Positions 48,376 through 62,525 of a stretch of DNA of 64,000 bases are shown piece after piece (positions within the stretch are counted from its first letter, which is position 1; each line of letters begins with the position of its first letter). A program made the translations under genes and the position numbers. The notes below the pieces were generated by a model. The model worked only from the letters and a program-made list of their open reading frames with translations, ran no database searches and was not told the origin of the DNA. The DNA comes from Mangrovimonas aestuarii (GTDB lineage Bacteria; Bacteroidota; Bacteroidia; Flavobacteriales; Flavobacteriaceae), in assembly GCF_028767185.1 (NCBI RefSeq), contig NZ_JARACK010000001.1, forward strand, positions 248,001 to 312,000, written 5' to 3'.

Positions 48376-49074
48376 CTACAAAAACCCTTTTGATTTGGCT
48401 TCTGCGATTAGAGAATCATCTTTGCCATCCTCAACGGCAAAAAGCTGTTTTAAGTGTTTTTTACGCTTTTCAATTGCACTTAAGGACAAGCCTACCTGCT
48501 CTGCCAAATTCTTTGTTTTTTCACCCTGGGAAAGTAGATAAAGAATTTTTCTGTTTTTTTCATCAAGAACAATATCACTCATTACGGTCTTCCTTAAATA
48601 ACTGTTCACCGTTCCACTGTAAAATGGTGGTTTATATAAGATAGCCTGAAATGCGCTGGCCAATTCACTAGAAGTCAAATCACTTTTAATCAAAAAACCT
48701 TCAGGATTCACTGTTTTCAAAATATTATGAATCCTAAATGATTCGTTGAACATCGTGAGTATCACTATTTTTGTTTGAGGAAGGATTTTTCTAGCATAGA
48801 CTGCTAAATCTTCTCCAGAATTTATCTTTCCATCTTTTGTGGGAGGTATTCTGATATCGACAAACAACATATCATACGGCTTATCCATCGCAACCGATCT
48901 ATTGATTAAGGTTACCGACTCATCACAAGTATTTGCTATATCTATTTCAAGATGTTGATGATCCTTTTTGCTAGCCATTAGGGTATTTTGATAGCCTTCT
49001 ATAATCATTGGGTGGTCATCGGTCATTAAAATACGTATGGTTTCAGTCATAGGTTTCTGATTATATAGGGACAT
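48376..49074 (-). CDS. NarL/LuxR-type response regulator
   Basis: A 232-residue regulator. The receiver domain (about 12-140) has acidic pocket MTDDHP, phospho-acceptor Asp73 (LFVDIRIPP) and Lys in LIKSDLT. The C-terminal LuxR HTH (about 172-220) shows LLSQGEKTKNLAEQVGLSLSAIEKRKKHL. The start is either Met at 49074, overlapping the kinase stop, or MTETIRIL at 49050. It is paired with the upstream histidine kinase. Confidence 0.92.
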   Translation of the reverse strand: MSLYNQKPMTETIRILMTDDHPMIIEGYQNTLMASKKDHQHLEIDIANTCDESVTLINRSVAMDKPYDMLFVDIRIPPTKDGKINSGEDLAVYARKILPQTKIVILTMFNESFRIHNILKTVNPEGFLIKSDLTSSELASAFQAILYKPPFYSGTVNSYLRKTVMSDIVLDEKNRKILYLLSQGEKTKNLAEQVGLSLSAIEKRKKHLKQLFAVEDGKDDSLIAEAKSKGFL

Positions 49075-51079
49075 TTACTAAAATTATTGTTCCAGTGCTT
49101 GGGGTTGAATCTATTTGTAGCTCACCTTCAATTTCACTTACTCTAGAGTTTATATTTTTCAATCCAATACCTTTTCTTGCCCGGTTTACATCAAAACCAT
49201 TTCCATCATCTCGAATACTTAACGAAATTACACCTTGACCCAATGTAAAGTCGATAGTTACATGGCTGGCATTGGCATGTTTATATATATTTTGAAGAGA
49301 TTCTTGAATAATCCTATAAAAATGGATTTTGGTTTTATTTGAAACTTCATCCCAAACTATACTATCATTATGATTCAAAGTATACCCTAATTGATATGCT
49401 GCAGTCTGTGTAGAAACAAGATTATCAACAATATCCAAGTATCCAGAACCTGAAATAAAATCTGTGTTAAGATCGTGAGAAATCTTTCTTATTTCATGTT
49501 CAATGTTTTTCAACTCTTCAATATAAACTCCTCTATTTTTTATAGCCTCTTCAGAATTAACCATGTTAAGGCTATCCAAACTTAATCTTGTACCAAACAA
49601 ACGCCCTAAAACACCATCATGTAACTCTTCAGAAATCCTTCTTTTTTCAAGCATTCTGGCCTCATCGATTTTATCTTGCCTAGAAAGCATCAAATTATAA
49701 ATTTCTTCATTAGCCTCTTGCTGTTGCTGACTAAATTGCAGCTGTCTATTTTTTGCTCTTTGAGAAACAATAATGTAAATCAAAACAAAAGTTAAAAGTA
49801 CTCCTACTAAAAGAATGGTTAACCAACTTTTTTCTTTGGATATTTGTTTATTTTTTTGCTCAATCTCTCTTGTCTCATAGCGAATTCTTGCAAACTTATT
49901 CCTCACAGCACGCTCGTTTTGGTGCAGACTATCGTTAAGAGCTATATAATCTTTATAATGCTTAACCGCCAAACTATCATCCTCTATCTTAGACAACAAT
50001 AGTATGGATTCCAATAAATCGTCATTATGATATTGAAGAGAAATATCTTTAGCGGCATAACCATAATAACGAGCAGAATCCTTTTTTCCTTTACTATTAT
50101 AGAATTCAGCCAAGTGTTGATTGATAATTATAGAGTTATAAGTCTCTCCAATACTATCACAAATCCTTAATGCTTTCAAATAAAGCTCAGGTAACTCCAT
50201 TAAATCTCCCATTAAAAATTTAGTATGGGCATAATTATCTAAAACCAAAGCATAAAATGGTGGCCTACGATGCTTAAGCTCTTTATCATCTAAAATTTCC
50301 TTGTAATTAGATGCTGCAATTGCATAGGCTCCTGAATTTTTATAAGCTCTAGCTAAATTATTTTTAGAATTATCAATGGTCTCTAAATTATCTCCATCTA
50401 AGGTTCTCTTTAACTCAAAAGCTTTTAAATGATATTCGATCGATTCTTGAAATTGCTCAAGTTGATCGAAAACCATTCCTAAATTGTTGTATAAATATGC
50501 TTTGACTCTTCTAACTTCATCAGTTTGTCTGACATCTTCAAGCAAGGACAAGGATTCTATTGAAGTAACTTCACTTCCTATAAAATCCTTCTCATTCTTT
50601 TGGACAATAGCAATGCTAAGTAGTACAATAGCCGTATTAAAATTATCTCCTAGTGATTTATATAACTTTTCACTTTTATGATAATAGTAATAAGCGCTAT
50701 CCGTCAAGGGATAGCCCCTATAGTATTTACCTTTAAGAAAATAAGCTTTTGCAAGTGTCGAAGTGTCTTTTAATCGCTTAGCCTTCGTCAATGCTTTTTC
50801 ATTAGCATATCGAAAAGAATCTAGATTCTTTTGCTCCCAATAGATAGTTGACAGCAAAATATCACAACTCAAAAGGTCGCTTTCTGTTCCATATTTTTCC
50901 GCTAGCTTCTTGGCTTTCCAGGTAAAGTCTAAACGTTCTTCCAAGGAATATCTTTTCTCGTTCTTGGCATTAGACAAATACCAATCTAAAGAATCGACTT
51001 TCTTATTTATTGTTTTTTCTTGACCAAAAAGATTGCTTAAAAAAAATAAAGCAAGAATAATGTAGGCAACTCTATTCAA
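49061..51079 (-). CDS. TPR-containing sensor histidine kinase (NarX/HisKA_3 type)
   Basis: A 672-residue kinase. It has a signal peptide (about 1-20), TPR-like repeats in the periplasm (about 70-390) and one membrane helix (about 419-439). A coiled coil leads to the HisKA_3 box RRISEELHDGVLGRLFG, with phospho-acceptor His487. The HATPase domain follows, with FYRIIQESLQNIYKHANAS (N box) and DDGNGFDV...GIGLKNI (G boxes). It is operonic with the regulator. A TPR sensor of this layout is common in Bacteroidota; the signal is unknown. Confidence 0.93.
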   Translation of the reverse strand: MNRVAYIILALFFLSNLFGQEKTINKKVDSLDWYLSNAKNEKRYSLEERLDFTWKAKKLAEKYGTESDLLSCDILLSTIYWEQKNLDSFRYANEKALTKAKRLKDTSTLAKAYFLKGKYYRGYPLTDSAYYYYHKSEKLYKSLGDNFNTAIVLLSIAIVQKNEKDFIGSEVTSIESLSLLEDVRQTDEVRRVKAYLYNNLGMVFDQLEQFQESIEYHLKAFELKRTLDGDNLETIDNSKNNLARAYKNSGAYAIAASNYKEILDDKELKHRRPPFYALVLDNYAHTKFLMGDLMELPELYLKALRICDSIGETYNSIIINQHLAEFYNSKGKKDSARYYGYAAKDISLQYHNDDLLESILLLSKIEDDSLAVKHYKDYIALNDSLHQNERAVRNKFARIRYETREIEQKNKQISKEKSWLTILLVGVLLTFVLIYIIVSQRAKNRQLQFSQQQQEANEEIYNLMLSRQDKIDEARMLEKRRISEELHDGVLGRLFGTRLSLDSLNMVNSEEAIKNRGVYIEELKNIEHEIRKISHDLNTDFISGSGYLDIVDNLVSTQTAAYQLGYTLNHNDSIVWDEVSNKTKIHFYRIIQESLQNIYKHANASHVTIDFTLGQGVISLSIRDDGNGFDVNRARKGIGLKNINSRVSEIEGELQIDSTPSTGTIILVNVPI

Positions 51080-51468: not shown

Positions 51469-51629
51469 GAGACGAATTGTCTTTCAAAATGGATTAATTA
51501 AAAAACTAAATCATTGTTTAGTTAGTAAGGGAGTACTAATATAATAGGAAAATTCTTTTAAATCAGCTAAAAACCGACAAACAGCTTTATTTTTTCGACA
51601 AATAACATGCTTCGAATTAAAAAAGAAAT

Positions 51630-51654
51630 AATCCCGTACGACTAGCACGGGATC
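51630..51654 (-). terminator. Intrinsic terminator of the catabolic locus (after the SDR gene)
   Basis: A stem ATCCCGT/ACGGGAT with a nine-nt loop, followed on the minus strand by a T-rich run, 33 bp past the SDR stop. Confidence 0.75.
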
Positions 51655-51686
51655 ATTAAACAAAATAAAACTAATAAATCTACAAT

Positions 51687-52457
51687 TTATTGTGCACTCC
51701 AACCGCCATCCAAAGTAAATGTAGAACCTGTTATGGTGGAGGAAGAATCTTTTGCCAATAAAAAAGCCATATCGGCAATGGCCTCAATTGGGACAAATCC
51801 CTTTACTGCTTGCTTTTTTAACATTACTTTAGAAATCACATCATTTTCAGTCATTTTATGAGCCTTAGCCTGATTGGCAATCTGCGCTTCTACTAATGGG
51901 GTTTTCACATACCCTGGACAAATTGCATTGGCAGTAATATTACATGCCGCCCCTTCTAAAGCCAAAACTTTTGTCATACCTATAACACCATGTTTGGCTG
52001 CAACATAAGCAGTTTTATATTCCGAAGCTCGAATACCATGAACTGAAGACACATTAATTATTCTTCCAAATTTCTGTCTCTTCATATACTTCCATGCATT
52101 CTTTGAGGAATAAAAAACTGAATTCAAGTTTATATCTATTATTTGCCTGTATTTATCTTCGGGAAAACAATCTACTGGCGAAACATACTGAATACCCGCA
52201 TTATTAATAAGAACATGTAATGCTCCAAAAATTTCAACTGTATTTCCCACCAACTTTTCAATACTCAGAGGATCTAATAAATTAGCGTTAGAAAATGCCG
52301 TTCTAACATTGTAGACGTCACCGATACGTTGTGCTATTTTTGCGCCATCAGTTTCCAAACCATGAAACATAATATTGTACCCATGTTTGGCAAAGTGCTC
52401 GGCTATTCCAAGACCAATACCACTGGTACTTCCGGTAATTAAAGCTACTTTATCCAT
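51687..52457 (-). CDS. 3-hydroxybutyrate dehydrogenase-like SDR
   Basis: A 256-residue classical short-chain dehydrogenase. It shows TGSTSGIGLGIA (cofactor loop), NNAGIQ, catalytic Ser in NVSSVHG and Tyr-x3-Lys in AYVAAKHG. The sequence NAICPGYVKTPLVEAQI and the TGSTFTLDGGWSAQ ending are characteristic of D-3-hydroxybutyrate dehydrogenases. It would oxidise 3-hydroxybutyrate to acetoacetate. It is the last gene of a seven-gene minus-strand locus and overlaps the hydrolase gene by 8 bp. Confidence 0.87.
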   Translation of the reverse strand: MDKVALITGSTSGIGLGIAEHFAKHGYNIMFHGLETDGAKIAQRIGDVYNVRTAFSNANLLDPLSIEKLVGNTVEIFGALHVLINNAGIQYVSPVDCFPEDKYRQIIDINLNSVFYSSKNAWKYMKRQKFGRIINVSSVHGIRASEYKTAYVAAKHGVIGMTKVLALEGAACNITANAICPGYVKTPLVEAQIANQAKAHKMTENDVISKVMLKKQAVKGFVPIEAIADMAFLLAKDSSSTITGSTFTLDGGWSAQ

Positions 52458-53232
52458 TTCTTAAAAATTTATAAAGTTCCCTATTGAACAGATTGGGCTG
52501 GTCCATAAGTACACCATGTCTTGAATTGGGAATAATAGTCAGAATTGCATTGGGCATATTATTTACATAAGTTTTTTTTAATTCTACAGGAGTATAATCC
52601 ATATCTGATGCAATCACCAATGTTCTAGACTTAATATCTTTGATTTTTTCTCCCATCCCCCAACTCATTAAGGTTACAAAAGAATTTAAATAAGCATTGT
52701 AATCATTCTGCTTACACCTAAGTTCAAAGGCATTTCTAAGCTCTTCCTGTCCATGTTCAGGAAACATATTATAAGCTATTTTTTCTGCCAGAGTATCCAA
52801 CCCCTGTTCTCGCAACATTTTTGTACGAGATGCCAACATTTCCTCCCCTATACTTCCCAAATCATTAAAATCTGGTCCACTATTAACTATAACCAGATTC
52901 TCTATAATTTCAGGAAAGTCGAAAGCCAATTGAAAGGCAATAGCTCCCCCCATAGAAAAACCAACAACAGTTACTTTTGCGATACATAAATGGTCCAAAA
53001 GTTGTTTAATATCCTGGGTCATATATGGTACACCATAATTCTCAGAAGGCTTAGACGAATTACCATGCCCTCTCAAATCTACCGTTATTACCTTGTACTC
53101 TTTTGAAAAGAAAGGGACTTGTTCGTCCCAATCTTTTTTTGTTGATCCTAAACCATGCAGGAGTAAAAGAGGGTCTCCATCTCCTACCAACTCATAGTCT
53201 AGGTCAATGTCATTAACTTTTAACAATGGCAT
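52450..53232 (-). CDS. Cytoplasmic alpha/beta hydrolase
   Basis: A 260-residue alpha/beta-fold hydrolase without a signal peptide. The oxyanion HGLGST, nucleophile elbow GFSMGGA (Ser about 94), acid in VIASDMDYTP and His in SRHGVLMDQP form the expected triad. The size fits small ester, lactone or oligomer hydrolysis. It lies between the TonB receptor (13 bp gap) and the SDR, so it probably cleaves the imported substrate into hydroxy acid units. Confidence 0.88.
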   Translation of the reverse strand: MPLLKVNDIDLDYELVGDGDPLLLLHGLGSTKKDWDEQVPFFSKEYKVITVDLRGHGNSSKPSENYGVPYMTQDIKQLLDHLCIAKVTVVGFSMGGAIAFQLAFDFPEIIENLVIVNSGPDFNDLGSIGEEMLASRTKMLREQGLDTLAEKIAYNMFPEHGQEELRNAFELRCKQNDYNAYLNSFVTLMSWGMGEKIKDIKSRTLVIASDMDYTPVELKKTYVNNMPNAILTIIPNSRHGVLMDQPNLFNRELYKFLRNG

Positions 53233-53245
53233 ATTCTAAGCAGAC

Positions 53246-55732
53246 TTAAATTTTAGCTTTTTGCTTATTGAAGAAATTAATATTGTATTTCAATTCCAAG
53301 GACACAAGCGTTCCTATCGTAGGAGAACCAACAAATTCTCTAATATCTGCATTAAACAAGTTGGTCACATTTGCTCCTACGGTTAAATTCTCCTTAATAT
53401 TATACCCAAGATTCATATCTACTGTGAACCCTCCTAACGGCCCATAGTTCCAAGACCTTCCATTTTGAGCGTTCTCAATAACGTCATTAACACCATCACC
53501 ATTTAAGTCCTGAGTTTCTGCAGCCACATAAATTCCAGAGAAGAAATCGTAATCCTGAACCCATCGTCCATAAAGAGAACCAAAGAACTTCTTACTTGTG
53601 TAATGAACCCCTAATTTAACCTTGTTTGCAGGTGTATTGATAGGCAGCTCTGATTCTAAGACTTGCCCATCTAAGTTCCCGTCGTTCTTTGGATCGTTTT
53701 TATCCAAATCCCTTCCAAAGTAAGAGTAGTTTGCAGATGCCCTAAACGCATTTGTGAAATAGTAATTCAAACCTATATCTATACCATAAGTATCCACCTT
53801 ACCGAAATTTTGATAAGTTAAAATAAAAGAACCATCGGAACCTGGAACCACATCACCAATTGGTTGGTCACCAACTTGTGTTACGGTTACTCCATTAGCT
53901 GCATCGGTAATAGCTCTTAATGGACTTATAAAATTTTCAGACATATTATAATAGGCGTTGGCATCTAAGAACAATTTATCTGCAATTTTACCTTTGTAAC
54001 CCAATTCAAATGTACTAATAGACTCAACCTCAAGCGGATCTACTTTAGAACCATTAGACAAGGTAAAGCCTTCACCGTTACCAATAATTAACCCCCCAAA
54101 TAAATTTCCTTTTAAATTTAGTATGGACGGTACTGCCATTCCTTGCCCATAGGTCATTCTTATTTGACCGCTACCCAGGTTTTTTGTAATGGCCGCTTTA
54201 GGAAGGAAATTAGTACCATAAAGGTCATGGTTATCTATTCGTGCCCCAAATAAGACGCCAAATCCCGTTTCTTCAAACTTATACTCTGTTTGAGCATAAA
54301 AACCAACTTGACCAATATCTATCCCCCCTTCATCAAGCAAATAGGTTCCTTTAGAGTCGGCCATATCCAATTGATATTGCGCTCCCGTAGTTAAATAGAA
54401 GCTATTCCAATTATTATTGTACTGCAACTCAGAATTAAAACGTTGTGAGGCATCTTTAAACACAGCCCCCCTAGGAATAGCAACTCCCGTGCCAGGCCCT
54501 GTAGGGAACCATTGTTCTGTGTACGATCGCTCTAAAGCCTCTTCTTCTGAAAAACCATTGTTTATAAAAGACACATAATTTTGTGTCCTTTGGTTTATTG
54601 CATAAGTATCGTCAGTATTACTCCAAGTGTAATAAACGTTGGCAAACAAATGCTTTGATGTATATTTTAATTGTGCAACATCTATACTCCAATCTTTAAT
54701 TTGATTTCTTCCAGCATTAGTCACGGCTAAATTATTATTGTTGCTATGACCATAATAACCAACTACTTCAGATTTTTCGCTAGGTTTAAAGTAAATACTA
54801 CCTCCATACTTTTGAGTATTGAAATCCCTATCTAGCTCCAATTCCTTATACGACTCAGTTCCAACATAAACCGTATCTACATAATCGAAATCTTCTCCTT
54901 GCGATCTTTCAAAATGAACCTTATATGCCCATTTATCGTTTATTACTTGAGCATGTCGCATTCTGGCTGTTATCACACTTTGATTTCCTCCCCCAACAGC
55001 AAAAGTGGTTCCTTCCGATGTTCTAGGATTTTTTGTTCTTGTGCTTACCAATCCATTATGTGCGTTAGGACCATAAAGGGTTCCATTAGGGCCTAATAAA
55101 ATTTCTACTTGTTCAACATCATCAGCTGTAACCGTCGAAAAAGTTCCCATAGGAAGCCCCGTAGCTATTAGGGTTGAAAGCCGATCGTCTGTAACCTGAA
55201 GATTTTTGGAGTTAAAAGCTGAGTTAAAACCTCTAATATTTAATCCGGTCCCCAAAACCCCTGTTCTAACAAAATCAACTCCTTTTTGTGAAGCGGCTAA
55301 TTCTCCTAAATTAAACCCTACATGTTCATCTATCTCCTGAGAGGTAATAACAGCTACTGTTGAAGGGACCTCTGTTATTTTTTGGGGTTTCTTTCCCGCA
55401 GAAATTACTATTTGCGACAATTCGCTAGCAGACTCATTTAATACAACGGAAACACTACTAGTTTGGTTAGCTTCTACAATAACAGATTGGGTAATTGTTT
55501 CAAATCCAATATAACTAAAGGTTAACTCATGAGTTCCAACAGGTATATTGGTCATGAAAAATTTTCCGTTAAAATCGGAAACTACTCCTTTGTTTAGGTC
55601 TTTAATTTGGATATTTGCCCCAGCTACAGGAACATCATTGACATCTAAAGTCAATCCTTCAATACTACCTGTTTCCTGTGCCAGGACTAAGGCTGACACT
55701 AAAAACAGTATTAGAGAAAAAATATTCTTCAT
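53246..55732 (-). CDS. TonB-dependent receptor of the catabolic locus
   Basis: An 828-residue receptor with a signal peptide (about 1-18), a CarboxypepD_reg-like domain (about 22-105), a plug (about 115-240) beginning EVPSTVAVITSQEIDEHVG and a long barrel ending TLVSLELKYNINFF. It resembles siderophore/small-ligand receptors rather than SusC, and no SusD partner is present. By context it imports the ester or oligomer handled by the neighbouring hydrolases. It is separated from the helical-repeat gene upstream by 136 bp. Confidence 0.9.
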   Translation of the reverse strand: MKNIFSLILFLVSALVLAQETGSIEGLTLDVNDVPVAGANIQIKDLNKGVVSDFNGKFFMTNIPVGTHELTFSYIGFETITQSVIVEANQTSSVSVVLNESASELSQIVISAGKKPQKITEVPSTVAVITSQEIDEHVGFNLGELAASQKGVDFVRTGVLGTGLNIRGFNSAFNSKNLQVTDDRLSTLIATGLPMGTFSTVTADDVEQVEILLGPNGTLYGPNAHNGLVSTRTKNPRTSEGTTFAVGGGNQSVITARMRHAQVINDKWAYKVHFERSQGEDFDYVDTVYVGTESYKELELDRDFNTQKYGGSIYFKPSEKSEVVGYYGHSNNNNLAVTNAGRNQIKDWSIDVAQLKYTSKHLFANVYYTWSNTDDTYAINQRTQNYVSFINNGFSEEEALERSYTEQWFPTGPGTGVAIPRGAVFKDASQRFNSELQYNNNWNSFYLTTGAQYQLDMADSKGTYLLDEGGIDIGQVGFYAQTEYKFEETGFGVLFGARIDNHDLYGTNFLPKAAITKNLGSGQIRMTYGQGMAVPSILNLKGNLFGGLIIGNGEGFTLSNGSKVDPLEVESISTFELGYKGKIADKLFLDANAYYNMSENFISPLRAITDAANGVTVTQVGDQPIGDVVPGSDGSFILTYQNFGKVDTYGIDIGLNYYFTNAFRASANYSYFGRDLDKNDPKNDGNLDGQVLESELPINTPANKVKLGVHYTSKKFFGSLYGRWVQDYDFFSGIYVAAETQDLNGDGVNDVIENAQNGRSWNYGPLGGFTVDMNLGYNIKENLTVGANVTNLFNADIREFVGSPTIGTLVSLELKYNINFFNKQKAKI

Positions 55733-55868
55733 AATAAAATAGTTTTCTAAGTTTAGTTATTAGTGTGAGCAATCTATTATGAAATATGAACATCACATAT
55801 TCAAAATTTAAGTAATTCAGATGTGACTTTCTTCCTAAAAAATAAAAAATAAGAGCAAAAACTACTGA

Positions 55869-57311
55869 TTACTGCAGCAAACATTCTTTTTGTTCTAGGT
55901 GAGACTTTAAATTCAAGAATGCATCTGGCAAATTATTCGAAAGGGTGTTGATTACCTGAACCATTAAGTACTTTTGATTAGATGTTGGATTAATAGTATT
56001 AATAGGCTCTTTAATCTCAACCAATAACCTTGAAGAATTTATCTCTCCTTCCATATACCTAGCCAAGGAAATACTCCACGAAATATTAGGAACATAGTTA
56101 CTTTTTTTACGTCTAAAATTCTCTCTCGCCTTTAAATCATAAATTCTGGTTAGTTTAAGAACGTCGTAATACTTCTCTTGAAGGATTAAAACATTTATGT
56201 AAGAAGTAAAGAAATGATGCCATCTGTGATTTAAAACTTCTTCCCTATTAGTTTTTAAAAAATTTTTAGCTAGTGATTCAGCCTCTTCAAAACGCTCGAG
56301 ACCAGCCAGAGCTCTTACTTTATAAGATATATACCCTATTCGATGATGATTATTGTGTGTAGAATCGAAGAGATCCTGATATTCATCCAACAAAGAACAG
56401 GAAAGATCAACTTTTTTATTTCGTAATGTAATTGCCACTAAATTGTTCAAATACATTAAGGTGTCATCATTTCGTTGACGTATGGAGAGAAAACCATAGT
56501 ATTCGGCTTTTTTTAAATCATTATTTTTAGAATGCATTAATACCCTATTGGCGTAATAATTAGACAATAGCCTCCTAGAGTACATTTCGCCTTGACTAAA
56601 AAACAAATCTATTTCATCAAATATCGAAGCTAGTTTTCCCTTTTCATTGTAATTAGTATACATAAAAGTCAGCAAGACAAATGCCTTATAACGATTTTTA
56701 CCATCTATGGATTTGGTACGAAACACTTTAATCAACCATTTTTCCCAATATTTAGTTTCCTTGTCATTAAGTGTATATTGACTGGTAATTTCCCCAGTTG
56801 CCTGGTATAGTCTATCATGGATTAGTTTCGCCTTGTTATAATGACTCTCATAATCACTTAGAAAGCTATTAACAATTTCATGATCCTTATACCTCATTCG
56901 GATTAACAAATAAGATTGGTATTCTTTTGCCAATTCATATAAGTTCTGGAAATAATACTCTATCCCTTCGTAATTAGACAAATACCTCAAAAACTCAACC
57001 TCTTCCTGATAATCAATAGAATCTGTCAAGATTTTTCTTCTCAAATTTAGTAATGAGACAATAGCGCGATCAACATCTATATCACTTAACTTACGCTCTA
57101 TCCAAGTCTTTATGTAGGTATATTTTCTTTTATCTATCGAAACATCAAACTTTTCTGTTTCATCCTCGGATACTGCATTATTAATTAACTTTTTAAGAAT
57201 TTGATTTTTTTCAAAATCTGTGATATTGCTTTCTAATGACGCAAGATACTTAGCCTCATTTGGCAATAACGACCTGCTAAACTCCGTGAATTTTTTCAGC
57301 TTGACTTTCAT
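55869..57311 (-). CDS. Helical-repeat protein of unknown function in the catabolic locus
   Basis: A 480-residue all-alpha protein without signal peptide or membrane helix, rich in Tyr, Lys and Leu. TPR-like helix pairs run from about residue 200 to 460 (for example NDLKKAEYYGFLSIRQRNDDTLMYLNNL and LERFEEAESLAKNFLK). No DNA-binding or catalytic motif was seen. It begins 2 bp after the secreted hydrolase gene, so it is translated with it. It could be a scaffold or a regulator; no family was recognised. Confidence 0.75.
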   Translation of the reverse strand: MKVKLKKFTEFSRSLLPNEAKYLASLESNITDFEKNQILKKLINNAVSEDETEKFDVSIDKRKYTYIKTWIERKLSDIDVDRAIVSLLNLRRKILTDSIDYQEEVEFLRYLSNYEGIEYYFQNLYELAKEYQSYLLIRMRYKDHEIVNSFLSDYESHYNKAKLIHDRLYQATGEITSQYTLNDKETKYWEKWLIKVFRTKSIDGKNRYKAFVLLTFMYTNYNEKGKLASIFDEIDLFFSQGEMYSRRLLSNYYANRVLMHSKNNDLKKAEYYGFLSIRQRNDDTLMYLNNLVAITLRNKKVDLSCSLLDEYQDLFDSTHNNHHRIGYISYKVRALAGLERFEEAESLAKNFLKTNREEVLNHRWHHFFTSYINVLILQEKYYDVLKLTRIYDLKARENFRRKKSNYVPNISWSISLARYMEGEINSSRLLVEIKEPINTINPTSNQKYLMVQVINTLSNNLPDAFLNLKSHLEQKECLLQ

Positions 57312-57313
57312 CC

Positions 57314-58258
57314 CTAAAAACTTTCAATAAACTTCGTTAACAAAGCATTTACTTCAGCTGGTTTCTCAAACTGCACAAAATGACCGGCTTTTTCTACAAG
57401 AGCAGTTTGAGCATTTGGAATAATGTCCCCCGCCAACTCGGCAATTTCTTTGGTGGTCATCTTAGGGTGCAGATACTTGTTGGGTATTAAATAATCTTGC
57501 TCTCCAAAAACAACCAATGTTTTTTGACCTATATCAGAAAGACTATTGAAAACGGGATCTGACAACATCCCCCGAACACTACTGCTAATAGCTTCACAAT
57601 GCTGGGAAAAATCTGAGCACGCCCGGATGTTCTTCCTATCCTGAATCATTTTTTCCACATCACCAGGCATTTCATAAAAATTCAACTCATAATTCTTGGC
57701 AATCTGTTCATCTGATGTTTGCATTACGGCATCCTTTCTTATTGCATTTGTCAATAATTGAGATTCTGTTTCGCTAAACTGTTCTATTCCTGCAGGAGCA
57801 ATTAACACCAATTTACTTACATCCTCAGGATAAGTCAAAGCCAACTTCATTGCTGCCTGCCCTCCCATTGAATGACCGACGAGAACCACCTGATTTAAAC
57901 CTAGTTCTGAAATAAACCTATGGATGACTTCCGCAAAAAAAGTTGGAGTATGCTCTGTGTTAACTTTTGAGGATTTTCCAAACCCTGGTAAATCCAAAGC
58001 TACGCAAGAATATTGCTTACTAAGCACCTTTATATTTTTAGACCAAGCATCGGCGTTACTGCTTAATCCATGAACAAATAGAATGGTTTGAGAGTGACTA
58101 CCTTCTTTAATAAAAGAAACCTCCAAGCTATCCAACTTTACAAACCTGGTTTCATATTCATATTCAGAGAGAACTTCCCTCATTCCTGATGCTGTATTTT
58201 GTGAAACTGAAAACAACGAAAACATAAAAAACAAAAGATTTAAAATCGGTTTTTTCAT
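57314..58258 (-). CDS. Exported alpha/beta hydrolase
   Basis: A 314-residue hydrolase with a signal peptide (about 1-20, ending FSVSQ), so it acts in the periplasm or on the surface. The triad is visible as HGLSSNADAW (oxyanion), GHSMGGQ (Ser), FGEQDYLIP (acid) and AGHFVQFEKP (His). A cap region (about 170-225) separates the two halves. It overlaps the acyl-CoA ligase gene by 4 bp. It is likely to make the first cut in an ester before transport. Confidence 0.88.
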   Translation of the reverse strand: MKKPILNLLFFMFSLFSVSQNTASGMREVLSEYEYETRFVKLDSLEVSFIKEGSHSQTILFVHGLSSNADAWSKNIKVLSKQYSCVALDLPGFGKSSKVNTEHTPTFFAEVIHRFISELGLNQVVLVGHSMGGQAAMKLALTYPEDVSKLVLIAPAGIEQFSETESQLLTNAIRKDAVMQTSDEQIAKNYELNFYEMPGDVEKMIQDRKNIRACSDFSQHCEAISSSVRGMLSDPVFNSLSDIGQKTLVVFGEQDYLIPNKYLHPKMTTKEIAELAGDIIPNAQTALVEKAGHFVQFEKPAEVNALLTKFIESF

Positions 58259-59760
58259 ACCTCTATTTTTAGTGAACTATAGTACTGCCTAAGTTTCTTT
58301 CTAGAAACTTTACTCAAACTAGTTAAAGGAATATCTTCCATAACGAATATATGTTTTGGGTGTTTATATCTAGTCATATTCTTCCTCAAATATTCGCGAA
58401 CCCCCTCTACTGTAACACCATTATTTTTTATCTCGATAAATGCAATACCACAATACCCCCATTGTTCATCTTCAACTCCAAAAACCGAAGCCCTAGCAAC
58501 CCCGTCTATTCGCTCTAAAACATCCTCTACTTCTTGTGGATAAATATTTTCTCCCCCAGAGATATACATATCATCTTTACGTCCTTTCAGGTATAAAAAA
58601 CCGTCCTTATCCTCATAAGCTAAATCACCGGTATGCAACCACCCTCCTCTTATCTTATCTTTTGTAGCATTTGAGTTATTCCAGTACCCAGGAGTGACAA
58701 TATCACCCTTAACACATAACTCCCCTATTTCATTGTATTTCACCAATTCATTCTTATCGTTTACAATCTTTACTTCGAGGTAAAAATTAGGTTTCCCTAT
58801 AGAATTGGGCTTTATAAGTGACATTTTATGATGTAATGAAGTTATACTTGGTCCTGCTTCGGTAAGACCATATCCCGGACGAATAAATATTCCTTTTTCT
58901 CTATTCCAATCGGAAACCAGTAACTCATTTACTTTTTCTCCTCCCGAAATAATATACCTTAGTCTGCCTAACGACACTTCTTTATAAACCCTTGATTTTT
59001 GCATCATCTGAAGCATTGTTGGAAGCCCCATAAAAAGAGTCACCTTTTCTTGCTCCATTAACCGAAGGGTTACATCGGGATCAAACTTTGAAAGCATTCC
59101 CACATGCCCTCCTTTATGAAGCAAGGGTGTTATAAAAATATTCCAACCCGATGTATGATAAGGAGGCAATACGTTTAAGGTTGAATCCCTAAAAGTAATC
59201 CCAAGTTGCATGGAAGTATTCAAACTGTTCCAAAACAACATTTTATTTGTATAAACAACACCTTTTGGAGTACCGGTTGTTCCCGATGTATAAAAAATAA
59301 ACAGCGGGTTGTTTTCATTAATATTGTATTCAGGAAAACCGGAAAAGTCACCGCTCAAGTAGAGGCTTTTAAGGCTTTCTATAGTTGCTTTATATTTTAC
59401 ATTATCTCCTAATTCTTCTAGCTTTGTTTTTTGAGCAAGGCTGTAAAACAAAATTTTAGGACTACAATCCCCCCATAATTTCTTTAGATCATTAGATGAC
59501 ATCCTGTAATTTAATGCCACCAAAATAAGCCCTAACCTTTGACAAGCAGAGAACAAAACAATATATTCGGGTCCATGTTCTGCTAAAACAGCTACTCTAT
59601 CCCCCTCATAAAACCCTAGTTTTTGTAACTGAAGAGCTAACCTATTTGCATATAAATGAAGTTGCTCATAAGTATATTTCTCATTATTTGAATAGCACGT
59701 AACTGCAACTTTGTCCGGTGTATAGGCTGCCCATTTACCTATCCAGTCTAATGTATTCAT
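58255..59760 (-). CDS. AMP-forming acyl-CoA ligase (class I adenylate-forming)
   Basis: A 501-residue ligase with the P-loop YTSGTTGTPKG at 157-167, PPYHTSGWN, the A5 region GYGLTEAGP, the hinge LHTGDLAYEDKDGFLYLKGRKDDMYISGGENIYP and a C-terminal Lys in LTSLSKVSRKKL. It activates a carboxylic acid to its CoA thioester. It is much shorter than true acetoacetyl-CoA synthetases (about 650), so the acid may be hydroxybutyrate or another short or aromatic acid. It overlaps both neighbours by 4 bp. Confidence 0.9.
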   Translation of the reverse strand: MNTLDWIGKWAAYTPDKVAVTCYSNNEKYTYEQLHLYANRLALQLQKLGFYEGDRVAVLAEHGPEYIVLFSACQRLGLILVALNYRMSSNDLKKLWGDCSPKILFYSLAQKTKLEELGDNVKYKATIESLKSLYLSGDFSGFPEYNINENNPLFIFYTSGTTGTPKGVVYTNKMLFWNSLNTSMQLGITFRDSTLNVLPPYHTSGWNIFITPLLHKGGHVGMLSKFDPDVTLRLMEQEKVTLFMGLPTMLQMMQKSRVYKEVSLGRLRYIISGGEKVNELLVSDWNREKGIFIRPGYGLTEAGPSITSLHHKMSLIKPNSIGKPNFYLEVKIVNDKNELVKYNEIGELCVKGDIVTPGYWNNSNATKDKIRGGWLHTGDLAYEDKDGFLYLKGRKDDMYISGGENIYPQEVEDVLERIDGVARASVFGVEDEQWGYCGIAFIEIKNNGVTVEGVREYLRKNMTRYKHPKHIFVMEDIPLTSLSKVSRKKLRQYYSSLKIEV

Positions 59761-61244
59761 GACATTACAAACTTTTTATTGAATCCATAAATTAAATAGC
59801 CAATACCTATAGAAAACAATATTCCTATTGCTGCCGAAACTCCAGGGTTATTTACCGGCTCTTGCATATAAGGGGTTAACCTTCCGTAATAAACTCCAAA
59901 ATGGACTACTATAGCTGTTATACTAGCCACAAAAACAGCCACTAATGGCACCTCCTTCAAAAAAACCCCAAAAAACACTGGCACAAATGCTGCAGCAAAA
60001 TAGGCATACACTCCATTCTGTGCAAAAATAGCAACACTTACATCCGGACTTTTAATTTGTTGCCAACTCAAATAAAAACTAACAACCGCCAATGCCACTA
60101 TCACAATTTTATTCACCATTACTGTATTCTTAACAGCACCCTTGAAAATCGGCATCAAAATATCAGATGTAACCGTTATAGATAAAGATTGAATCAAACC
60201 CTCCAAAGTAGATAGTCCAGCAGAAATTAAACCTATAACTATTACCATCCCTATTCCAACCGAAAACTTTGTAACCACATAAGTTGGGACAATTTCATCC
60301 ATTTTTAGGACACTTCCCCCCAAGCTGAGATCCGGAAAAGAAAGCCTCGCATAAAGACCAACTACTACTACCAGAAAAAAAACAGACATAAATGCAATAC
60401 CACTACCCAAATAAAAGTTTATACTTTGTTTATCCTTAAGCAGTAGGGATTTTGTAATGATGTGAGGCTGGCAAACAATAGCTATTCCAATGATTACCTG
60501 AGCAAGGACAATTTCGAAATAGTCCCTAAACAAAAAACTCTCCTTATTGGTTGGAGTAACTAGGTTGGGGTCTATTTCAGACAAACGACTCATTAGTCCT
60601 GAAATTCCATTTTCAAAATATTCCGACCCAGATGAAATCAGAATGATAGCTACCACAAACATTATCAGCGCCTGAATGGTATTTGTATACACCATGGAGT
60701 TTGCCCCACCAAACATCATATAACCAAAAACAAAAAATGTCAAACCAAGAAGGACATAAAAAGGATCTACATTTAATGATTTAGAAATAACCTGGGTAAT
60801 TCCAACATTAATTAAAACTATGAAGGTAATGAGCAGCAATGCGATTATACCGAAAAAAAAAGAAAACCTCTTACTATTATATCTACTACCTATCCACTGA
60901 GCCATGGTATTCGCTTTTACAACATTACCATATTTAGCAAAACCTTTGGTAAACAGTATTAATGAGACAAAAATGGCTATAGGCATTACAACTGCAAATG
61001 AAATCAATCCTGACACTCCATACAAAGCAATAAAACCTGGGTTTATAATGAACGTTGCTGCACTTGTCATAGAAGCAGCTAAAGACAAACCTACAACCCA
61101 AGAAGGAAACCCAATATTGCCAATAGCATAATCGGAAAGACTTTTGGCTCTTTTAGCCCCTCGCACTACAAACAAGAGAATAAGTGAAGCATAGCAAATC
61201 AAAAGTATCCACATATATGACACCCAATCATTAGAAGCAATCAT
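59757..61244 (-). CDS. Sodium:solute symporter (SSS family)
   Basis: A 495-residue protein with about 13 hydrophobic helices. SSS signatures are visible: SLAASMTSAATFIINPGFIALYG early, FGGANSMVYTNTIQALIMF and GLISAGLSTLEGLIQSLSI. Members take up monocarboxylates, sugars or amino acids with Na+. It is the first gene of the minus-strand locus and would bring the released acid across the inner membrane for the ligase and dehydrogenase. Confidence 0.93.
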   Translation of the reverse strand: MIASNDWVSYMWILLICYASLILLFVVRGAKRAKSLSDYAIGNIGFPSWVVGLSLAASMTSAATFIINPGFIALYGVSGLISFAVVMPIAIFVSLILFTKGFAKYGNVVKANTMAQWIGSRYNSKRFSFFFGIIALLLITFIVLINVGITQVISKSLNVDPFYVLLGLTFFVFGYMMFGGANSMVYTNTIQALIMFVVAIILISSGSEYFENGISGLMSRLSEIDPNLVTPTNKESFLFRDYFEIVLAQVIIGIAIVCQPHIITKSLLLKDKQSINFYLGSGIAFMSVFFLVVVVGLYARLSFPDLSLGGSVLKMDEIVPTYVVTKFSVGIGMVIVIGLISAGLSTLEGLIQSLSITVTSDILMPIFKGAVKNTVMVNKIVIVALAVVSFYLSWQQIKSPDVSVAIFAQNGVYAYFAAAFVPVFFGVFLKEVPLVAVFVASITAIVVHFGVYYGRLTPYMQEPVNNPGVSAAIGILFSIGIGYLIYGFNKKFVMS

Positions 61245-61453
61245 TGATTATTTTTTAATGTTTTAACAAATAAAAAAAATAAAAAATAAAATACTACACC
61301 AACACAAAACAATATCAATGCGACTTTTACGAAAAACTAATAAAAAACAAAGAAAACCCTAGAATTAAGCCACCACAGACAAGTACGACTTTAATAAAAA
61401 AGATAATCTAAAAAGTTTTGAGTGAATAAAGAATAAAAATAGATTTTTCAATA

Positions 61454-61485: not shown

Positions 61486-61593
61486 GCAATTTTGCGGTCT
61501 GGACGGGATTCGAACCCGCGACCCCCTGCGTGACAGGCAGATATTCTAACCAGCTGAACTACCAGACCGTTTCATTATTGCCGTGCAAATATA
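61478..61593. repeat. 116-bp direct repeat, copy 1 (tRNA-Asp unit)
   Basis: It is identical to 62791-62906 except at 61582 (C versus G). It runs from the 3' arm of the terminator through the tRNA to the last base of the promoter -7 box. Confidence 0.9.
61495..61568 (-). tRNA. tRNA-Asp (anticodon GUC), copy 1
   Basis: A 74-nt tRNA with acceptor GGTCTGG/CCAGACC, anticodon loop CTGTCAC, T-loop GTTCGAATC and discriminator G. CCA is not encoded. The mature sequence is identical to copy 2. Confidence 0.97.
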
Positions 61594-61880: not shown

Positions 61881-62525
61881 ATGAAACTCAAAATGCACAT
61901 TTTCGTTTGCTTTACGGCAGCTTTTCTTTTTGCCTGTCAACCAAACTCTATCGACTCTACTCAAGAAGTAATAACCACTCAAGAGCAACAAATTACCAAT
62001 TCCGAAAATAGCAACAGAGGCATCTCTAACGCTCCTGAGCAGTCAGGAATTTATGTTATTCGCACAGAATTAGAATTCTTTTTTTGGATTTTCGACTATG
62101 AACAAGGCCTTTCTTTAATTGCAGGAATCGATGTTCCTGCTCTTTGCAACGGAGATCCCAACTCATTTAGTATACAACCTCTTCAATTAGTCGACTTGCC
62201 ATCTAGTAGCCTTGGAGCTGTAGGTTTAATTCAAGGTAACACTCAAGCCTATGTATTTCAAAACATTGACGATGATCCATCAATTTGTGATTACTTCACC
62301 AACAACCCTATTCTAGCCCAAGGTACGGTAGAATTTATTTATACAGACAATGATTTCTTTGGATCTCAAAGTAATAGACGAAATGCCTTTGGCGTAATAT
62401 TTCATGGCCAACTATATAACCAAAACAATGAGTTAAAAACACTTAATGCAAAACTTAAAATTATTTGGGATCCTGATGAGGATATCTCTGAGGCCTTATT
62501 TATAGATTCAATATTACTAAATTAA
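61881..62525 (+). CDS. Lipoprotein of unknown function between the tRNA-Asp copies
   Basis: A 214-residue lipoprotein with lipobox FLFAC at about 15-19, then a Gln/Thr/Ser-rich linker (about 20-55) and a compact C-terminal domain (about 58-214) with two conserved-looking cysteines (PALCNGD and PSICDYF) that could form a disulfide. No family was recognised. It has its own promoter and lies alone between the two 116-bp repeats. Confidence 0.7.
   Translation: MKLKMHIFVCFTAAFLFACQPNSIDSTQEVITTQEQQITNSENSNRGISNAPEQSGIYVIRTELEFFFWIFDYEQGLSLIAGIDVPALCNGDPNSFSIQPLQLVDLPSSSLGAVGLIQGNTQAYVFQNIDDDPSICDYFTNNPILAQGTVEFIYTDNDFFGSQSNRRNAFGVIFHGQLYNQNNELKTLNAKLKIIWDPDEDISEALFIDSILLN

Follow-up and report, generated by a model that had tools for sequence, protein, structure and literature searches.

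The window analyzed here is a 64-kb stretch of the 2.95-Mb genome of Mangrovimonas aestuarii, and the relatives recovered in the searches belong to Flavobacteriaceae. Seven minus-strand genes of this window, located from position 61244 to 51687, probably form an operon for the scavenging of (R)-3-hydroxybutyrate esters, most likely short oligomers derived from the poly-3-hydroxybutyrate (PHB) of other bacteria. That 3-hydroxybutyrate is an intermediate of the encoded pathway was considered likely. The features read from the sequence were the operon structure, the protein families, the intact catalytic residues, the conservation among genomes, a repeated motif with its spacing, the subfamily of the short-chain dehydrogenase/reductase (SDR), and the linkage of the SDR gene to genes for a coenzyme A (CoA)-transferase.

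All seven genes that a sequence-only reading of this DNA had placed on one strand were found as open reading frames (ORFs), and the families it had named agreed with Pfam and NCBIfam in each case. According to the ORF calls, the genes are nearly gapless, with junctions (in gene order) of -4, -4, 2, 136, 13, and -8 bp, the 136 bp being the gap 5' of the receptor gene. The first gene (59757..61244) encodes a Na+/solute symporter of the SSS family (Pfam SSF, 2.9e-31, and solved SSS relatives), which would import the hydroxy acid or short esters. It is followed by the genes for an acyl-CoA ligase of 501 amino acid residues that forms adenosine monophosphate (58255..59760; ANL superfamily; Pfam AMP-binding, 7.9e-79), an exported alpha/beta-hydrolase with a Q-rule signal peptide (57314..58258; Pfam, NCBIfam, and invariant triad residues), and a helical protein of 480 residues, predicted to be a tetratricopeptide repeat (TPR) superhelix with an N-terminal helical domain (55869..57311), which is a candidate regulator. 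Downstream of the gap lie the genes for a TonB-dependent receptor with a carboxypeptidase-regulatory-like N-terminal domain (53246..55732; Pfam), a cytoplasmic, PcaD-like alpha/beta-hydrolase (52450..53232; Pfam, NCBIfam, and invariant residues), and a D-3-hydroxybutyrate dehydrogenase-type SDR (51687..52457). A hairpin search revealed a terminator-like hairpin of 13 pairs on the minus strand (51627..51657), 3' of the SDR gene at the end of the operon. This arrangement supports the prediction that the seven genes are one transcription unit.

The SDR scored 317.4 bits against TIGR01963, the NCBI model of 3-hydroxybutyrate dehydrogenase, for which the cut-off is 307.05; its orthologue in the locus L049, which belongs to another family, scored 338 bits. 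The closest solved structures were D-3-hydroxybutyrate dehydrogenases. The catalytic tetrad (N110/S138/Y151/K155) and the pocket residues Q90, H140, K148, and Q192 were invariant in 26 orthologues, and Q90, S138, H140, K148, Y151, and Q192 were aligned with Q94, S142, H144, K152, Y155, and Q196 of the Pseudomonas fragi enzyme (1wmb), which we take to be residues of the tetrad and the substrate pocket; K155 was likewise aligned with its counterpart in that enzyme. The sequence evidence thus supports a genuine D-3-hydroxybutyrate dehydrogenase type, as the sequence-only reading had suggested. Acetoacetate, the product of such an SDR, needs to be activated, and the CoA-transferase genes found next to it in five relatives therefore support the hydroxybutyrate reading. 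The gene for subunit A of a 3-oxoacid CoA-transferase directly follows the SDR gene in L049 and in four loci from Flavobacterium, and that for subunit B lies close to it; the L049 subunits exceeded the TIGR02429 and TIGR02428 cut-offs. In the M. aestuarii genome, the CoA-transferase pair is located on another contig (C9), and three thiolases passed the acetyl-CoA acetyltransferase cut-off. A route from (R)-3-hydroxybutyrate through acetoacetate to acetoacetyl-CoA has been described for Pseudomonas putida (PMC13390443). The seven genes had been said to cover every step; this would require acetoacetate to be the ligase substrate, as the canonical CoA-transferase and the thiolase are encoded elsewhere.

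Comparison of the locus across genomes, which had been proposed with the sequence-only reading, showed conservation of gene order and content across Mangrovimonas, Winogradskyella, Arcticiflavibacter, Flavobacterium, and other genera, extending to a second family within the order, which is more than a chance arrangement would give. When all ORFs of 35 loci, one of them that of the window, were compared, only the seven genes, the 3-oxoacid CoA-transferase subunits, and a gene for a protein resembling beta-ketoacyl-ACP synthase III (KASIII), found in a second version of the locus, recurred across genera; no other recurrent partner gene was found in these loci, and the borders are therefore clear. 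The helical protein, used as a query, retrieved 17 loci from the four genera named above. It was present in 17 of the 299 surveyed genomes of the family and was strongly matched in 5 of 345 genomes sampled from the phylum, where two further matches were weak fragments. High-scoring SDRs of the 3-hydroxybutyrate dehydrogenase type were found in 4 of 246 genomes of the order, each of which contained the whole cluster. The TonB receptor was found in 34 of the 35 loci. In Flavobacterium degerlachei (L019:9564-12032), the receptor ORF ends at 654 residues and the similarity continues to the usual end, possibly owing to a frameshift or stop in the record.

The second version (variant 2) was found in seven loci, five from the same family (L033-L037) and two from another family of the class (L060 and L061). 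Relatives of the symporter, ligase, exported hydrolase, receptor, and helical protein are kept, the 3-hydroxybutyrate dehydrogenase and the cytoplasmic hydrolase are missing, and a FabG-like SDR and the KASIII-like gene are present instead; the helical-protein gene is paired with the SDR gene in a divergent unit. In the KASIII-like proteins, the Cys of the FabH triad is kept, His is replaced by Thr, and Asn by Tyr. The loss of His and Asn argues against a decarboxylating condensation, and a thiolase-type KASIII acting in hydroxy-acid breakdown, beside the acyl-CoA ligase and the FabG-like SDR, is possible. Variant 2 would activate the (R)-3-hydroxy acid first and oxidize and cleave it at the CoA level, whereas version 1, represented by the window, would oxidize the free acid. 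In the L061 cluster, no TonB receptor was found, and a signal-peptide protein of 522 residues takes its place (L061:13423-14991). L061 also carries two copies of the exported-type hydrolase, and its relative of the exported hydrolase resembles a lipoprotein.

The imported substrate was considered from the hydrolases and the receptor. The N-terminus of the exported hydrolase is of the signal-peptidase-I type, with cleavage predicted after ...FSVS and before Q, and no further domain was found in Pfam; the signal peptides of most orthologues likewise end in S and are followed by Q. A Gln after the cleavage site is termed the Bacteroidetes Q-rule (PMC5837995). On the basis of this signal peptide and the absence of a further domain, the hydrolase is more likely periplasmic than secreted, and the periplasm is the simplest site because the receptor delivers there. 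The protein is thus predicted to be at least exported and is probably a periplasmic esterase. Its probable triad (S130/D255/H293) was invariant in 33 sequences, and the probable triad of the cytoplasmic hydrolase (S93, D210 or D212, and H239) was also invariant. A TonB receptor combined with an exported and a cytoplasmic hydrolase suggests the import of an ester-linked molecule that exceeds the monomer in size, which would be oligo-3-hydroxybutyrate or another 3-hydroxybutyrate ester.

The PHB synthase domain PhaC_N was not found in the M. aestuarii genome, and mobilization of PHB stored by the cell itself was rejected on this ground. A classical extracellular PHB depolymerase elsewhere in the genome was also rejected, as PF10503 (Esterase_PHB) was not found. 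With neither domain, there would be no classical PHB storage and no attack on the polymer by that enzyme class, so that oligomers from outside would be the most economical substrate. The following points weigh against the proposed reading. Against the polyhydroxyalkanoate (PHA) depolymerase models TIGR02240 and NF050089 (cut-offs 250.6 and 300), the cytoplasmic hydrolase scored only 61 and 91 bits and the exported hydrolase 50 and 101 bits. The lack of a PF10503 match in the genome, with matches in the control genomes, means that oligomers would have to be supplied by other organisms. Finally, the ligase would be redundant beside the CoA-transferase route unless it acted on something else, which could indicate a mixed ester. 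Attack on the PHB polymer itself is not supported. The sequence-only reading was correct in noting no classical PHB depolymerase with a substrate-binding domain; of its proposed use of oligo- or poly-3-hydroxybutyrate, the 3-hydroxybutyrate route via acetoacetate was retained and the attack on the polymer was not; it was mostly right on the chemistry, with the polymer unproven.

Alternatively, 3-hydroxybutyrate could be imported as a mixed ester, bound to another acid or an alcohol. The hydrolases would then free both halves, the SDR would take the 3-hydroxybutyrate, and the ligase would activate the other acid. The ligase is present in every copy of the locus, including those with the CoA-transferase beside the SDR, where a ligase for acetoacetate would merely repeat the work of the transferase. 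Among solved structures, it is closest to fatty-acyl, feruloyl, and succinylbenzoyl ligases; it passed none of the NCBIfam equivalog cut-offs among those shown (best 388 vs 748 and 373 vs 650). However, the loci share no recurrent enzyme for the breakdown of a second acid, and the ligase of variant 2 accompanies the FabG-like SDR and the KASIII-like protein, which fits the activation of a 3-hydroxy acid. We regard a mixed ester as rather unlikely; possible substrates of the ligase are acetoacetate, 3-hydroxybutyrate, and the other acid in such an ester.

The best matches of the cytoplasmic hydrolase were PcaD models, the exported hydrolase resembles HsaD/BphD, and PcaI/PcaJ also fall within the CoA-transferase subfamily models. 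These matches would suit a different hydroxy-acid ester or a lactone, for example of the aromatic ring-cleavage or beta-ketoadipate type, with the cytoplasmic hydrolase as a PcaD-like enol-lactonase. Such a substrate is improbable, given that all PcaD/HsaD scores were far below cut-off, that no ring-cleavage enzyme recurred in the loci, and that the SDR exceeded the 3-hydroxybutyrate dehydrogenase cut-off. As for the receptor, it scored 79 bits against the SusC/RagA-class model TIGR04056 (cut-off 368), and no SusD-like lipoprotein was found among the seven genes or the recurring neighbours. Its weak matches to siderophore-receptor models would be expected if the receptor and the exported hydrolase served the uptake of an ester-linked siderophore, for iron and not carbon; those scores were far below the cut-offs, iron genes did not recur, and the symporter, ligase, and dehydrogenase are carbon-catabolic, which makes this function highly improbable.

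The sequence-only reading noted neither the operator motif nor a possible part of the helical protein in regulation. The motif AAAGTCACAC is present in three copies per operon at fixed positions, common to most relatives. In the window, all copies are on the minus strand and are putative regulator-binding sites: the distal copy (AAAGTCGTAC, 61383..61392) and the proximal copy (AAAGTCGCAT, 61318..61327, approximately 80 bp upstream of the symporter start) are separated by 65 bp start to start, and the third (AAAGTCACAT, 55821..55830) is in the gap before the receptor gene. The two upstream copies are at about -146 and -80, and their spacing is 65-68 bp in most relatives. Apart from the motif, the non-coding stretches have almost wholly diverged (mean ungapped identity 0.36 in 26 dereplicated upstream regions). 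In these 26 regions upstream of the symporter, 50 copies of AGTCNYA were counted against 1.7 expected, with a maximum of 7 in 1000 shuffles, and 25 copies were counted in the gaps before the receptor against 1.6 expected. The pattern AAAGTCRYAY had exactly three matches in the window, all in the operon and on its coding strand. Genome-wide, single matches showed no excess (51 vs 71 for a reversed control pattern), and no two of the listed matches outside the operon were within 100 bp. A global regulon was therefore rejected; the site looks local, which points to a regulator dedicated to the operon.

The consensus of the Bacteroidetes -7 promoter element is TAnnTTTG. When the loci were aligned on the motif (28 loci for the proximal copy), a conserved -7-like box was found on the minus strand 52 bp downstream of the AGTC core, namely TTATTTG (61267..61273) for the proximal copy and TAGATTG (55770..55776) for the third. 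Both boxes are putative promoter elements by analogy, and TAGATTG is probably an internal promoter for the receptor, hydrolase, and SDR genes. The distance between motif and box would suit an activator that binds ahead of a Bacteroidota promoter. A scan for sigma-70-type promoters gave no excess over shuffles. In variant 2, the motif AAAAAAGTCCAT was found on the side of the transport operon in L033-L037, and pairs of the AAAGTC type, 77-79 bp apart, were found before the SDR/helical-protein unit in L033, L035, L036, L037, and L061 (the last from the other family); the unit has one AAAGTC-type copy in L034 and L060.

The helical protein has no Pfam or NCBIfam family of its own, although weak matches to Pfam TPR_12 were obtained in 13 of 26 members. 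An AlphaFold2 model built with 26 orthologues was an all-helical superhelix with a mean predicted local distance difference test score (pLDDT) of 89.9. No Foldseek match was obtained under an E-value of 0.001, and a profile search for relatives in the PDB gave none that was credible. Structural alignment with VIA-align gave Z scores of 17-18 to the TPR domains of Rap, MalT domain III, and LGN-type proteins at approximately 5-10% identity; the best was Rap of phi105 (Z 17.9 over 299 residues, root-mean-square deviation 5.2), with MalT domain III at 17.1. The protein is therefore predicted with confidence to be a TPR superhelix of no named family. What had been labelled an unknown helical protein is now recognized as a TPR solenoid.

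The modelled fold does not by itself single out a function, as similar Z scores were obtained to unrelated scaffolds. Among the genes common to both versions, only that of the helical protein encodes neither an enzyme nor a transporter, which makes this protein the leading candidate for the regulator; its chance of regulating the operon is put slightly under even. The first 121 residues contain an invariant KRKY...W motif and, modelled alone, gave a pLDDT of 80.8 and a best VIA-align Z of 4.6, which is below the meaningful level for helical bundles. A DNA-binding role is made less certain by this domain, for which no Foldseek match under an E-value of 0.001 and no helix-turn-helix (HTH) match was found, and by the nearly neutral N-terminal 80 residues (16 K/R vs 14 D/E). 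The same two observations, along with the common use of TPR folds as scaffolds, suit a scaffold or chaperone, in which case an unlinked regulator would bind the AAAGTCACAC sites; this has about an even chance. It is opposed by the restriction of the non-enzyme, non-transporter role in both variants to this one gene, by the separate AAAGTC pair (77-79 bp apart) of the divergent SDR/helical-protein unit of variant 2, and by the lack of genome-wide enrichment, which favours a dedicated regulator. In a more speculative proposal, which we hold as doubtful, the TPR protein would represent a new Bacteroidota activator family that senses a 3-hydroxyalkanoate (or its CoA or ester derivative), binds direct-repeat pairs of AAAGTC about 66 or 78 bp apart, and controls TonB-dependent uptake of hydroxyalkanoate esters. 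The sister system would read the same motif and would differ in degrading (R)-3-hydroxy acids at the CoA level through the FabG-like SDR, with the KASIII-like protein in a thiolase-type role.

From these data, we infer the identity of the substrate, its transport, the substrate of the ligase, the location of the first hydrolase, and the role of the TPR protein, and the following scheme is proposed. The TonB receptor would carry 3-hydroxybutyrate esters or oligomers across the outer membrane, and the exported hydrolase would cleave them in the periplasm. The SSS symporter would move monomers or short esters into the cytoplasm, and the cytoplasmic hydrolase would complete ester cleavage. The SDR would oxidize (R)-3-hydroxybutyrate to acetoacetate, which would be converted to acetoacetyl-CoA by the CoA-transferase encoded elsewhere and/or by the ligase of the operon, and a thiolase would split the product. 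A regulator, for which the TPR protein is the best candidate, would bind the repeated sites upstream of the two promoters and turn the operon on. PHB, also known as a biodegradable plastic, is a storage polymer found widely in bacteria, and dissolved PHB oligomers could plausibly serve as a source of carbon. If correct, the scheme would provide a TonB-dependent uptake route for 3-hydroxybutyrate oligomers in flavobacteria, explain a 3-hydroxybutyrate dehydrogenase in a bacterium in which neither PHB synthase nor PHB depolymerase was detected, and yield a marker operon for metagenome searches. The fixed spacing of the motif and the family-less TPR protein make the regulation of the operon testable.

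Around the operon, a tRNA-Asp gene is located upstream (61494-61568), and divergent from it, on the plus strand, a lipoprotein-like protein of 214 residues (61881-62525) matched nothing in Pfam or NCBIfam. Just downstream of the operon, the minus strand encodes a TPR-containing sensor histidine kinase and a response-regulator-like protein (48376-51079). This two-component system was rejected as the regulator, as no match was found near the cluster in any relative, and it is probably unrelated.

The locus was compared with known systems. In P. putida (HbdH PP_3073; PP_2047-2051; AtoAB/AacS; PMC13390443), an SDR likewise oxidizes (R)-3-hydroxybutyrate to acetoacetate, and CoA activation likewise relies on a ligase or on a 3-oxoacid CoA-transferase made up of two subunits. 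The passages covered from that source name no TonB receptor or exported hydrolase, whereas the present locus would start with both, for ester uptake; they describe the PP_2047-2051 operon as LysR-controlled, whereas the regulator candidate here is the TPR protein. In openly licensed literature, no paper was found that connects TonB receptors of this group to 3-hydroxybutyrate or PHB, nor one in which this gene set is combined with such a receptor and the operator pattern. The PHA depolymerases (PF10503; TIGR02240; NF050089) share the alpha/beta-hydrolase fold and the G-x-S-x-G nucleophile elbow, but both hydrolases of the locus are far below the curated cut-offs and have no substrate-binding domain. 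Over its C-terminal three quarters, the helical protein is best matched in structure (Z 17-18) by the superhelical TPRs of RRNPP/Rap and MalT-type regulators, from which it differs in its approximately 5-10% identity, in having no recognized HTH, and in matching unrelated scaffolds at nearly equal Z. The SusC/D-type polysaccharide utilization loci of Bacteroidota likewise unite an outer-membrane receptor, an exported hydrolase, an inner-membrane transporter, and catabolic enzymes in one operon; unlike them, the present locus has a lone receptor without SusD and without a glycoside hydrolase, and its substrate would be a hydroxy-acid ester. All pieces of the locus are of known kinds, with the exception of the TPR protein.

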